From Actinomycetes bacterium (GTDB taxonomy: Bacteria; Actinomycetota; Acidimicrobiia; Acidimicrobiales; Ilumatobacteraceae), in assembly GCA_027491335.1 (NCBI GenBank), contig JAIXWJ010000074.1, positions 80,732 through 144,731 on the forward strand: a DNA stretch of 64,000 nucleotides, in the 5' to 3' direction. Below the pieces are notes generated by a model. The model had not been told where the DNA came from and ran no database searches. It was given only the letters and a program-made list of their open reading frames with translations. This document shows, in pieces, positions 1 to 2,560 of the stretch. The translations under genes and the position numbers were made by a program. Position 1 is the first letter of the stretch. Each line of letters begins with the position of its first letter.

Positions 1-80
1 GTGACACCGTGTTCGGACACGATGCGTACGGTATCGGCGGGGATTCTCCGCGCCACGTGACCGTGGGCGAGAATGAACTC

Positions 81-989
81 ATGTCTCGTTCGTTCGGTCG
101 CTTCACCCTGCTGTCGCTGGCGGCGGTCTGGGTGATCTGGGGATCGACTTATCTGGCCATCAAGATCGGTTTGGAGACTCTGCCTCCGTTCTTCATGCAG
201 GGCTGCCGTTTCGTCGTGGCCGCCGCGGTGATGGCCATCTTCCTGCGAACGCGCGGCCATGCCTGGCCGACGCGTCGCCAAATGCGCAACGCGTCGATGA
301 TCGGCGTGATGCTGCTCATCGGAGGTCTCGGCATGGTGACGTTGGCCGAGGATCGCGGAGTGGACTCCGGGCTGGTGGCGACGATCATCGCGATCCAGCC
401 CATGATGATGGCGATGTGGGGTGGTCTCTGGAAGTCCTGGCCCAATCGAATGCAGTGGGTCGGAATGTTCATCGGTATGGGAGGCGTCGCCATTCTCGTG
501 GCCGACGACGGCTTGTCCGGCTCGTGGAGCGGTGTGTCGTTGGTGTTCGTCGCCTGCGTGTCATGGAGTTTCGGGTCGGCGCTCAGTCGACGGATCGACA
601 TGCCGGACGGACCCATGACGACGACCTTCGAAATGGCCGCCGCGGCGGTGGCGTTCATGGTTTTGTCGTTCGTGTCGGGCGAGGGGATCGAGGCCCCGAG
701 CTTGCGCAGTGGTTTGGCGGTCGCGTATCTGGTGGTGTTCGGTTCGATCGTGGCCTTCTCGGCATTCACGTATCTCATCTCCAACGTCAGTGGTCCACTC
801 GCGATGAGTTATGCCTACGTCAATCCGGCCATCGCGGTGCTGCTCGGGGTGGTGTTCAGCGACGAATCGGTGTCGGCCAACATGGCGATGGCGCTCCCGG
901 TGATTCTGGTCGGGGTGGCCATCGTCACGAACGCGTCCCGGCCGTCCACCGAGACCACCCGCGAGGATGCGTCTAGCGTGACGTCATGA
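81..989 (+). CDS. EamA/DMT-family permease
   Basis: Predicted inner-membrane metabolite or drug transporter of the DMT superfamily, 302 aa. The protein is almost entirely hydrophobic helices in two EamA halves (about residues 8-140 and 155-285). The first helix carries the typical WGSTYLAIK motif. I start at ATG 81 because the family begins just before this helix. An in-frame GTG at position 9 would add 24 residues unlike the family. The stop overlaps the ATG of the next gene (ATGA). The substrate cannot be read from sequence; amino-acid export or carboxylate uptake are known roles of relatives. Confidence 0.85.
   Translation: MSRSFGRFTLLSLAAVWVIWGSTYLAIKIGLETLPPFFMQGCRFVVAAAVMAIFLRTRGHAWPTRRQMRNASMIGVMLLIGGLGMVTLAEDRGVDSGLVATIIAIQPMMMAMWGGLWKSWPNRMQWVGMFIGMGGVAILVADDGLSGSWSGVSLVFVACVSWSFGSALSRRIDMPDGPMTTTFEMAAAAVAFMVLSFVSGEGIEAPSLRSGLAVAYLVVFGSIVAFSAFTYLISNVSGPLAMSYAYVNPAIAVLLGVVFSDESVSANMAMALPVILVGVAIVTNASRPSTETTREDASSVTS
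974..979 (+). promoter_or_regulatory. -10 hexamer TAGCGT, leaderless-type promoter of the Sec gene
   Basis: TAGCGT lies inside the 3' end of the EamA gene, 6 nt before ATG 986. This matches the TANNNT spacing seen before many other starts in the window. It suggests the thioredoxin-like gene has its own leaderless transcript and supports ATG 986 as the true start. Confidence 0.5.
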
Positions 990-1525
990 GTCGGATGCGC
1001 ACGTTCTCGATGGCCGTGTCGGTCGTCGTGGCGATGACCGGCTTCTCCATGATGGGTGCCGGATGCGGCTCGGATCCCGTCGACTCGGGTGCCACCTCCG
1101 ACATCACATCGTCCGACAACACATCGACGGGGTCCATCTCGAGCGAGTTGTTGATCGAGCCGACCGTGGATCTCGTTGCGTCGGGACGTCCGGTGGTGTT
1201 GTGGTTCTGGGCGCCCGGTTGAGCGCAGTGCAACGTCGAAGCCCCCTCGGTCGAGGAGGCCCACACCACGTACGGCGAGTCGGTCGACTTCTACGGAGTC
1301 GCATGGAACGGATCCGACGAGTACATGCTCGACTTCATCTCCCGTCATGGGTTGTCGTTCCCCAGCCTGCGCGACAACGCGGGTGACGTCTTCGCTCGTT
1401 ACGACGTTCCTTTCCAGCCGGCTTGGGTGTTTATCGCCGCAAACGGAGATGTCACCAGAGTCCAGGGAAGTCTGGACGCGGAGTCACTCGAGTCGTTGAT
1501 CGACGACGTGTTGGCGACGGCCTGA
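986..1525 (+). CDS. Predicted selenocysteine-containing DsbE/MPT53-like thioredoxin lipoprotein (in-frame TGA at 1220-1222)
   Basis: Predicted extracytoplasmic thiol-disulfide (here selenol) oxidoreductase. Read through TGA 1220-1222 it is 179 aa. Residues 1-27 form a lipoprotein signal peptide with Cys27, followed by a Ser/Thr linker and then a thioredoxin-fold domain from about residue 58. The active site reads WFWAPG-U-AQC, with Sec79 and Cys82. The UGA falls exactly on the first Cys of the family WCxxC motif, and the family Trp before it is Gly. The frame downstream of TGA keeps a full domain, including the cis-Pro segment VPFQPAW, which resembles mycobacterial MPT53/DsbF. A SECIS-like hairpin follows. 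Without recoding, the product would be a 78-residue stub lacking the fold. No selA, selB, selC or selD is visible here. A nonsense mutation or sequencing error at that exact codon is the alternative. Confidence 0.85.
1241..1260 (+). promoter_or_regulatory. Bacterial SECIS-like hairpin
   Basis: CCTC (1245-1248) pairs with GAGG (1253-1256) around an apical GGTC loop (1249-1252). Below are a bulged A (1257) and a C1243-C1244/G1258-G1259 continuation. The loop starts 27 nt after the last base of TGA 1220-1222. Bacterial SECIS elements sit immediately downstream of UGA inside the coding region and carry G in the apical loop. The E. coli fdhF loop also contains GGUC. Seen directly: the pairing and loop. 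Inferred: SelB binding. Confidence 0.65.
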
Positions 1526-2560
1526 TCAACCGAGTCGCGGACGAATCGAGCCGATGGCTCGCAAGGTTTCGCCGAAGCGTTCGTCCAGCGCCGGGTCGTC
1601 GGGCGGTTGAATCAGGAGTCCGTCCACGAGGCCCGAGTACCACTGTTCGAGAATGGCGGGGAGTTCGTCCCACGTTCCGGTGGGTAGCACGGTGTCCAAG
1701 ACCTCGTCGGTCATGAGAGAGCCGAGCGAACCCCAATCCCCGTTGCGGGTCATGGTGCGAAGGCGGGGTCCGAGCTCGGGCCACCCGAACAATTCGAGGG
1801 AACGTTGATAGGCGGGCGTCGAGTACAAGAACGCCAACACCGCGCGCTGGGCCTCGCGACTGCGGTCGACCTCGGCCGAGGTGGGGCCGGTGATGAGCGG
1901 TGAGGCGGTGATGATTCGAGGTGACGTGCCGCGTCGCGCGCTCTCGATTCCGGATTCGAGTGCGGGCATCGCCAACTCGCGAACGAATCGCGGGTGCGAG
2001 TTCGTCGGATGCGTCACGAACCAATCGGCACAGCGACCGGCCAGTTCGATGGCCCCACGATTCACGCCGCCGAGCAGGATCGTCGGAGGATCGTGGGGGA
2101 GGGGCCCCGGGTTGAAGAACGGCTGAAGCCGGTCGAGTGTGTACGAGTCCGTGCGAACGTTCAGGGGCGAGCCGTCGGTGAAGGACTTCCAGATCGCGCG
2201 CACGACCGTGACGTAGTCCTCCATTCGTCGCAACGGATCGGTCCATGCGACGCCGAAGCGTCCTTCGATGTTTTGGCGAATCTGCGTGGCCAATCCGAGG
2301 TCGAATCGACCGCCGCCGGCGGCGGAGGCATCCCACGCTTGAAGTGCCAACAACATGGGGCTGCGGGGGAAGGCCAAGGTCAGGCTGGTCTGCACGCGCA
2401 AGCGTCCGGTGGACATGAGGGCCAGCAACGACACCGCCATGGAGTCGTGCACCGTCTCGGGCACGTGAAGAACGTCGAAGCCCAGCGCTTCGACCCGCCT
2501 CGCGTACGCCCCAACCTCGGTCAGCGGCACGCGGTCGCTCATTCCGGCGATCAGCAGCAT
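1526..2560 (-). CDS. LLM-class F420-dependent oxidoreductase (TIGR03617-like)
   Basis: A 344-aa TIM-barrel flavin/F420 enzyme of the bacterial luciferase-like superfamily. The N-terminal layout resembles the MSMEG_2256-type F420 subfamily: A-x-x-x-E-x-L-G-F-D, then an ET-HD segment near residue 36, then AWDASAAGGGRFDLGLATQ. Cytosolic; substrate unknown. It is convergent with the thioredoxin-like gene and the two stops abut with no spacer. It starts at ATG 2560. No TANNNT hexamer or clear Shine-Dalgarno was found in front of it. F420 rather than FMN use is inferred from family and phylum. Confidence 0.82.
   Translation of the reverse strand: MLLIAGMSDRVPLTEVGAYARRVEALGFDVLHVPETVHDSMAVSLLALMSTGRLRVQTSLTLAFPRSPMLLALQAWDASAAGGGRFDLGLATQIRQNIEGRFGVAWTDPLRRMEDYVTVVRAIWKSFTDGSPLNVRTDSYTLDRLQPFFNPGPLPHDPPTILLGGVNRGAIELAGRCADWFVTHPTNSHPRFVRELAMPALESGIESARRGTSPRIITASPLITGPTSAEVDRSREAQRAVLAFLYSTPAYQRSLELFGWPELGPRLRTMTRNGDWGSLGSLMTDEVLDTVLPTGTWDELPAILEQWYSGLVDGLLIQPPDDPALDERFGETLRAIGSIRPRLG

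Follow-up and report, generated by a model that had tools for sequence, protein, structure and literature searches.

The gene and its product

The window analysed here, a 64,000-nucleotide stretch of DNA from an actinobacterium of the family Ilumatobacteraceae (assembly GCA_027491335.1, contig JAIXWJ010000074.1, positions 80,732 to 144,731 of the forward strand), carries at 986-1525 a gene with one internal TGA. We propose, at a probability of about 0.95, that it encodes a predicted selenoprotein, i.e., an extracytoplasmic lipoprotein with a thioredoxin fold and selenocysteine (Sec) at residue 79 (U79), which would be decoded via SelB and a hairpin with a GGUC apex that would serve as the selenocysteine insertion sequence (SECIS). 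The features of the locus, with the evidence for each, are as follows.

986..1525, + strand: predicted selenoprotein gene, lipoprotein with a thioredoxin/TlpA-like domain, 179 residues including U79, plus the TGA stop (frame; Pfam, PDB and model matches)
986..1066, + strand: predicted lipoprotein signal, lipobox ending at Cys27 (simple in-house pattern)
1220..1222, + strand: predicted Sec codon UGA (U79), N-terminal position in UxxC (frame; family loci)
1229..1231, + strand: codon of the putative resolving cysteine C82 (30/30 family loci including this gene)
1241..1260, + strand: predicted bacterial SECIS hairpin, whose stem has 4 + 3 bp with a C.A mismatch between them (folding; family loci)
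1245..1256, + strand: predicted SECIS core CCUC-GGUC-GAGG, invariant, apex GGUC at 1249-1252 (family loci; covariation)
1418..1420, + strand: codon of Pro145, presumed cis-proline of the QPAW loop (nearly invariant in the alignment)
3..989, + strand: upstream EamA-type transporter gene, frame open at the window edge (open reading frame and match)
1526..2560, - strand: downstream convergent gene of the luciferase-like monooxygenase family (open reading frame and match)

The original prediction, which was made from the letters of the window, held that a TGA replaces the first Cys of the active-site motif and that the frame continues with a complete thioredoxin C-terminal half. Re-reading the frame bore this out: codon 79 (1220-1222) is TGA within WFWAPG-U-AQC, Cys homologues align at that position, and 100 codons including VPFQPAW follow before the terminal TGA at 1523-1525. 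The read-through translation is MSRMRTFSMAVSVVVAMTGFSMMGAGCGSDP...WFWAPG-U-AQCNVEAPSVEEA...VPFQPAWVF...DDVLATA, in which Cys27, U79 and C82 are the sole C or U residues of the 179. Calling with translation table 11 produced the anticipated split into a 78-residue stub (986-1222) and a 66-residue fragment (1325-1525). One element of the prediction was not retained, namely a -10 hexamer placed 6 nt ahead of the ATG: TAGCGT (974-979) agrees with TATAAT at three of six positions by eye, and a promoter scan detected no promoter upstream of the ATG at 986.

The read-through protein matched AhpC-TSA (PF00578), Redoxin (PF08534) and Thioredoxin in Pfam. The proposed kinship with DsbE/MPT53 was recovered both by sequence and by fold, as MPT53 (1lu4) was the best PDB match in the sequence search (2.2e-22; DsbF, 3ios, 1.6e-16) and the two led the Foldseek search against solved structures (1.2e-13 and 3.0e-12). 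A structure model from 48 aligned sequences had a mean predicted local distance difference test (pLDDT) score of 86, with block means of 88-98 beginning at residue 61 and of 95-98 beginning at residue 71, and it placed U79 directly ahead of a helix (H80-96). Pro145 of QPAW is nearly invariant in the alignment, and its cis state is what we presume for a thioredoxin fold; the invariance of W73-P77 and C82 in that alignment is a product of the search pattern and was discounted. The scores remained below the curated NCBIfam cut-offs for ResA (50.9 vs 170), StoA (32.7 vs 210) and DsbE (24.5 vs 123.15). The features that mark an MPT53/DsbE-like protein (thioredoxin fold, WxxPCxxC, QP loop) were all found, and a thioredoxin fold closest to MPT53/DsbE is predicted for the gene product.

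Conservation of the UGA codon and downstream selection

Among 150 genomes of the same family, 147 had a match to the gene, and in at least 96 of them the best match carried an internal TGA. The counts of TGA genomes are lower bounds, as weak TGA relatives were missed in the match table, and matches with two TGA may include the terminal stop. The 30 best-scoring loci, which comprise the gene itself (L019) and 29 relatives, all have the TGA in the motif W-F-W-A-P-x-U-x-x-C, followed by 97-100 further codons. The alignment of homologues that the original prediction called for shows the TGA to be kept in 29 of the 29 relatives inspected. Behind the UGA, the rate of nonsynonymous substitution (dN, 0.009-0.167) was lower than that of synonymous substitution (dS, 0.09-1.06) in 11 of 11 pairs (e.g., 0.073/0.411). 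The codons downstream of the UGA are under purifying selection; the loss of frame conservation that had been named as a refuting outcome was not seen. The lipobox, for which a simple in-house pattern and no trained predictor was used, was found in all 30 family loci (the L039 piece was misplaced) and in 55 of 118 rows of a named set, in which the 90 residues before U were inspected.

At the level of DNA, the WFWAPxUxxC pattern with TGA occurred in at least 119 stretches of the GTDB collection. The 80 titles listed were mostly Acidimicrobiia or their subgroups (Ilumatobacteraceae, Acidimicrobiaceae, Microthrix) and also included Egibacteraceae, Euzebyaceae and Nitriliruptorales; a few listed matches (e.g., Xylanibacter, Streptomyces) were set aside as evidently due to chance. 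A phylum-wide scan of 396 genomes, own family included, found the pattern in 28 genomes and in 18 of 236 genera, and the pattern read backwards as a control had no match there. Relatives of the gene from many further actinobacteria share its UGA, and the same hairpin type follows it in the majority of those examined side by side. Records titled Bifidobacterium breve or Ferrithrix thermotolerans (metagenome-assembled genomes, MAGs; L109, L112, L085, L130) contain genes that group with those of the Ilumatobacteraceae, and their labels look wrong.

The predicted SECIS hairpin

A stem-loop with a GGUC apex about 26 nt downstream of the UGA had been predicted, and it was located as GCC.CCUC-GGUC-GAGG.GGC at 1241-1260 with the apex at exactly 26 nt. 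We take its GGUC to resemble the SECIS loop of E. coli fdhF. The isolated 20-mer folds at -10.1 kcal/mol, and 11 of 200 shuffles were equally good. The bacterial SECIS (bSECIS) model, as given in the accessible part of PMC13188914, calls for an apical loop of 3-9 nt, a stem of 4-16 bp, a G within the first two loop positions, a spacing of 16-37 nt and a minimum free energy of at most -7.5, and the 20-mer lies within every one of these limits. In the 64-kb window, four places had a TGA flanked by open codons (20 upstream, 25 downstream) and followed at 16-37 nt by a GGTC apex on a stem of at least 4 bp. The place at 1220-1222 was the only one with the apex at 26 nt and the only one whose gene has a thioredoxin homologue, the remaining three having been assessed by eye.

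The SECIS case rests on comparative evidence, energy by itself being weak. The sequence CCTCGGTCGAGG was invariant across the 30 loci from the family, which comprise 29 distinct 75-mers, third codon positions included. Codons 8-11 behind the UGA (NCC TCG GTC GAG) had zero third-base entropy (30/30 each), the remaining 20 of the 24 codons examined had 0.65-1.94 bits, and codon 6, the other invariant Glu, was GAA in 24 of 30 loci. The named set comprised 126 matches, from which L051, L052, L072, L132 and L138 were dropped (three nearly without the C-terminus, two out of context), leaving 121. GGTC started exactly 26 nt past the UGA in 93 of these (89 distinct sequences). Across the 89 distinct rows, the four flanking stem pairs were standard in 91.9% of cells, a figure that is not a probability, compared with a mean of 67.6% and a maximum of 73.6% in 1000 shuffles with redealt 3' letters, which ignore relatedness, and with 26-64% for slid partners. 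All four pairs were formed in 75 of the 89 rows. The stems were CUGC/GCAG (27), CCUC/GAGG (26), CAAC/GUUG (4), CGGC/GCCG (3), CGAC/GUCG (2) and GUGC/GCAC (2), and this variety around a fixed apex is a stronger point than the percentage of pairing. GGTC together with the four pairs was found in none of 20 Cys homologues from the 150-genome match list, one of which has GGTC without the stem. Genome G016 (L169, G016:C154:60200-62200) holds tandem Cys and Sec copies, with the hairpin only in the Sec copy.

Two nearby TGA-bearing copies were observed at each of seven WFWAPHUxxC loci (L058, L073, L080, L118, L125, L141, L162), most of which have what looks like a different hairpin, UCGAGC-AGUUC-GCUCGA, at a greater distance from the UGA.

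Selenocysteine machinery and its co-occurrence with the gene

The search for selA, selB, selC and selD that had been proposed as a check found all four in the source assembly (2.52 Mb, 76 contigs, 94.6% complete). SelA matched with 329 bits and SelD with 322 bits. SelB, which adjoins selA, reached 289 bits against a cut-off of 242, the match covering positions 2-343 of a 581-position model in a 617-aa frame. A single tRNA-Sec match lay above the gathering score (67 vs 47 bits), and ARAGORN concurs, with the anticodon UCA.

A tRNA-Sec above the cut-off was found in 103 of the 150 family genomes. The TGA gene and tRNA-Sec were both present in 79 genomes, the gene only in 17, the tRNA only in 24 and neither in 30 (Fisher p 2.9e-6; this and the following p values ignore genome relatedness). 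For the 76 genomes that were at least 90% complete, the same counts were 49, 2, 10 and 15 (p 1.1e-7). The association was much the same with SelD as the marker: both were present in 88 genomes, the gene only in 8, SelD only in 26 and neither in 28 (p 4.5e-9).

Database visibility and Sec/Cys exchange

A search of 5.8 billion predicted proteins, which needs shared 5-residue words and skips proteins shorter than 0.55 of the query length, so that stubs could not appear, scored 94 candidates and returned four relatives, none of them with Sec. Two were Cys orthologues (P0003, P0004), P0005 has Trp at the place of the UGA, and P0006 is a downstream fragment. The protein databases hardly show the TGA thioredoxin family.

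To account for the strongly supported branches of a tree built on 112 columns from 143 Sec and 22 Cys rows, six or more Sec/Cys changes are needed, and the Cys protein P0003 is placed among near-identical Sec rows. Most of the Sec rows were picked by the TGA pattern and 20 of the 22 Cys rows come from one family; because of this skewed sampling, we do not assign an ancestral state. At L106:4615-5109 (a Pseudonocardia-labelled MAG) and L134:1646-2128, the tree places Sec forms within groups of Cys forms. Both have a GGUC hairpin that lies farther from the UGA, and a separate gain of Sec in these two is possible.

Gene neighbourhood

The predicted selenoprotein gene begins within the stop codon of the EamA-type gene ahead of it, start and stop overlapping as ATGA (986-989). 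At eight loci of the same genus, with short flanks, the EamA gene was upstream in six and the luciferase-like gene downstream in five. Around 30 other named genes with the same SECIS type, 91 neighbouring open reading frames, called by a simple in-house score, included 12 lpdA-like and 24 TrkA-like ones; the four lpdA-like frames tested all passed the NCBIfam cut-off. The sole DsbD_TM-like gene found was below the cut-off. A fixed redox partner next door was considered and rejected, as the neighbours vary by clade. Among these neighbours no electron partner was found, and the DsbD_TM-like gene adjoins a different (Cys) thioredoxin-like paralogue.

Interpretation and alternative explanations

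The features by which a bacterial selenoprotein is recognised were found together: a UGA at the position of a catalytic Cys, the selA, selB, selC and selD genes, a hairpin inside the bSECIS limits and covariation of its stem. The selenoprotein interpretation is supported by the machinery, the conserved TGA and the downstream selection, and no refutation test that was run went against it.

Several observations weigh against this interpretation. Three longer windows around the hairpin were no more stable than shuffled sequence (z +0.43 to +0.67), for which reason folding energy was dropped as proof, and Rfam had no match. GGUC at +26 is missing in 28 of the 121 relatives; 24 of these form the WFWAPHU clade, in which the other hairpin, UCGAGC-AGUUC-GCUCGA, was recognised by eye only. 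At the sequence level, 30 of the 96 TGA genomes were inspected, and among the other 66 the match in G131 also contains a TAG. Seventeen of the 96 lack a detected tRNA-Sec (two of them at least 90% complete), eight lack a detected SelD and four lack both markers. In control genomes, the models passed their cut-offs in 5 of 14 (tRNA-Sec), 2 of 14 (SelA) and 2 of 14 (SelD); because of the first of these counts, some of the family's tRNA-Sec calls may be false positives.

The proposed mechanism runs as follows, with Sec insertion, export and lipid anchoring as predicted steps. CCUC-GGUC-GAGG, 26 nt downstream, would recruit SelB carrying Sec-tRNA, upon which the UGA would be decoded as Sec, and the protein would probably be anchored outside the cytoplasmic membrane as a lipoprotein. 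Its chemistry may be that of MPT53/DsbE and of the ResA/TlpA thiol-disulfide oxidoreductases: the U79 selenolate would attack a disulfide or sulfenate of the substrate to give a mixed selenenylsulfide, Cys82 is predicted to resolve this into a U-C bond, and a membrane donor would reset the bond. As to direction, we infer that the protein more probably reduces or repairs surface proteins than assists oxidative folding. The alternative with the most weight, to which we give clearly less than even odds, keeps the selenoprotein and reverses its direction, so that it would act as an oxidant for disulfide formation, as DsbA does. Its nearest solved relatives, MPT53/DsbE and DsbF, speak for this, and MPT53 has been described as an oxidase in vitro. 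However, no fixed partner gene accompanies the selenoprotein gene, the neighbours differing by clade (DsbB and VKOR were not searched for), and the weak DsbD_TM-like gene described above lies beside a Cys paralogue.

The remaining alternatives deny the Sec residue altogether. A genome-wide reassignment of UGA (to Trp, for instance) or a read-through that involves no selenium is very improbable: the Trp of P0005 looks as if it had been called with code 4, but TGA terminates both the gene at 986-1525 and the EamA gene, the Sec pathway is present in the genome, and a GGUC apex on a covarying stem is what a SECIS read by SelB requires (model in the accessible part of PMC13188914). We give equally little weight to a truncated product, in which the 78-residue stub or a restart fragment would be the real protein and read-through minor. 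Standard calling splits the gene in just this way and P0006 stands in the database as a downstream fragment, but the stub breaks off within the active site and does not contain the fold, while purifying selection acts on the downstream codons and the hairpin is kept. Least credible of all is a pseudogene or a sequencing or assembly error, with the TGA as a nonsense mutation or fault in a Cys gene, since despite the fragmented assembly (76 contigs) and the existence of Cys orthologues (P0003, P0004) the same codon is TGA in all 29 relatives inspected, dN is below dS downstream and synonymous sites are invariant.

What keeps the selenocysteine machinery

In the source genome, SelD reads TSCGGC and the FdhA-like gene L189 reads ARTCHAP; both are Cys forms at the residues that we take to be the Sec sites. 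Three further molybdopterin-oxidoreductase-like genes without TGA were also observed there (L190, G000:C40:37929-39374; L191; L192). Across the 150 family genomes, a TGA-bearing FdhA match was found in 48 (G110 with further stops) and a TGA-bearing SelD in 18, whatever the position of the TGA in the match. Among the 103 tRNA-Sec genomes, 46 carry the TGA thioredoxin and neither TGA-FdhA nor TGA-SelD (45 of 98 if SelD is also required), and 17 carry none of the three TGA genes (16 of 98). The 12 sampled genomes of the same genus included ten with tRNA-Sec and 11 with the TGA thioredoxin; TGA-FdhA and TGA-SelD were found in none.

In G041, a genome of this genus with both tRNA-Sec and SelD, all three TGA genes are missing. 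A further selenoprotein is likely in G041 and in 16 other family genomes, and other selenoproteins are likely in the family because 17 of 103 tRNA-Sec genomes lack all three. In the source genome, 55 kb around selAB, tRNA-Sec and selD and six smaller loci yielded one weak place and no convincing second selenoprotein. We do not claim the gene to be the only selenoprotein of its genome, which was scanned in part, other selenoproteins being likely in the family.

According to the accessible part of a 2006 survey (PMC1794560), every selenoproteome includes FdhA or SelD, which were proposed to maintain the trait. The pattern in the family studied here departs from that statement, and the FdhA-or-SelD rule becomes testable because 46 of 103 tRNA-Sec genomes carry the TGA thioredoxin alone of the three genes. 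With a little less than even confidence, we suggest that in this genus the envelope-anchored Sec thioredoxin, and not FdhA or SelD, may be the main keeper of the Sec machinery, that its SECIS may be a minimal GGUC hairpin moved through codon contexts by compensatory change across Actinomycetota, and that it may represent an old actinobacterial selenoprotein lineage in which Sec and Cys were exchanged repeatedly and which protein databases scarcely reveal.

Comparison with known systems

The claim of a new selenoprotein stood in part. Thioredoxin-fold selenoproteins with UxxC are already known from tables in the accessible parts of PMC13188914 and PMC2398784, and 12 families of actinobacterial selenoproteins are named in that of PMC1794560. 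An actinobacterial MPT53/DsbE-like lipoprotein branch was found in no paper of the open-access literature that was searched (subscription papers and supplements excluded), in which nothing on Acidimicrobiia selenoproteins or selenocysteine in Ilumatobacter was found either. The gene therefore belongs to a known kind, and it is its branch that is new among the papers found. With it, a selenoprotein family that is probably lineage-wide comes into view, its members here stemming mostly from metagenome-assembled actinobacteria and their genes being split by standard annotation. The naturally occurring compensatory variants of the short GGUC hairpin offer a ready-made set on which actinobacterial SelB can be tested.

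Compared with the bacterial SECIS model, the hairpin has a GGUC apex, 4 bp, a spacing of 26 nt and -10.1 kcal/mol, and its stem is short. The UxxC families in the available passages of the 2026 inventory PMC13188914, i.e., 'thiol-disulfide isomerase-like' (cd02966), 'redoxin family' (PF08534) and 'Prx-like thiol:disulfide oxidoreductase' (PF00578), share with the gene, compared by description only, the UxxC motif and matches to PF00578 and PF08534; the terms 'actinomycet' and 'actinobacter' do not occur in its main text. The Trx-like 1 selenoproteins of the Global Ocean Sampling (COG0526, UxxC, 321 sequences; PMC2398784, Table 2, in the part available) are likewise thioredoxin-like with UxxC, and this set, for which the available passages name no taxon, may include the branch described here. 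The closest resemblance is to the extracytoplasmic MPT53/DsbE (1lu4) and DsbF (3ios), with which the gene product shares the WFW.P..C..CN.EAPS and QPA stretches, whereas it differs from both in having Sec in place of the first Cys, a predicted lipoprotein anchor and a putative SECIS within the gene.
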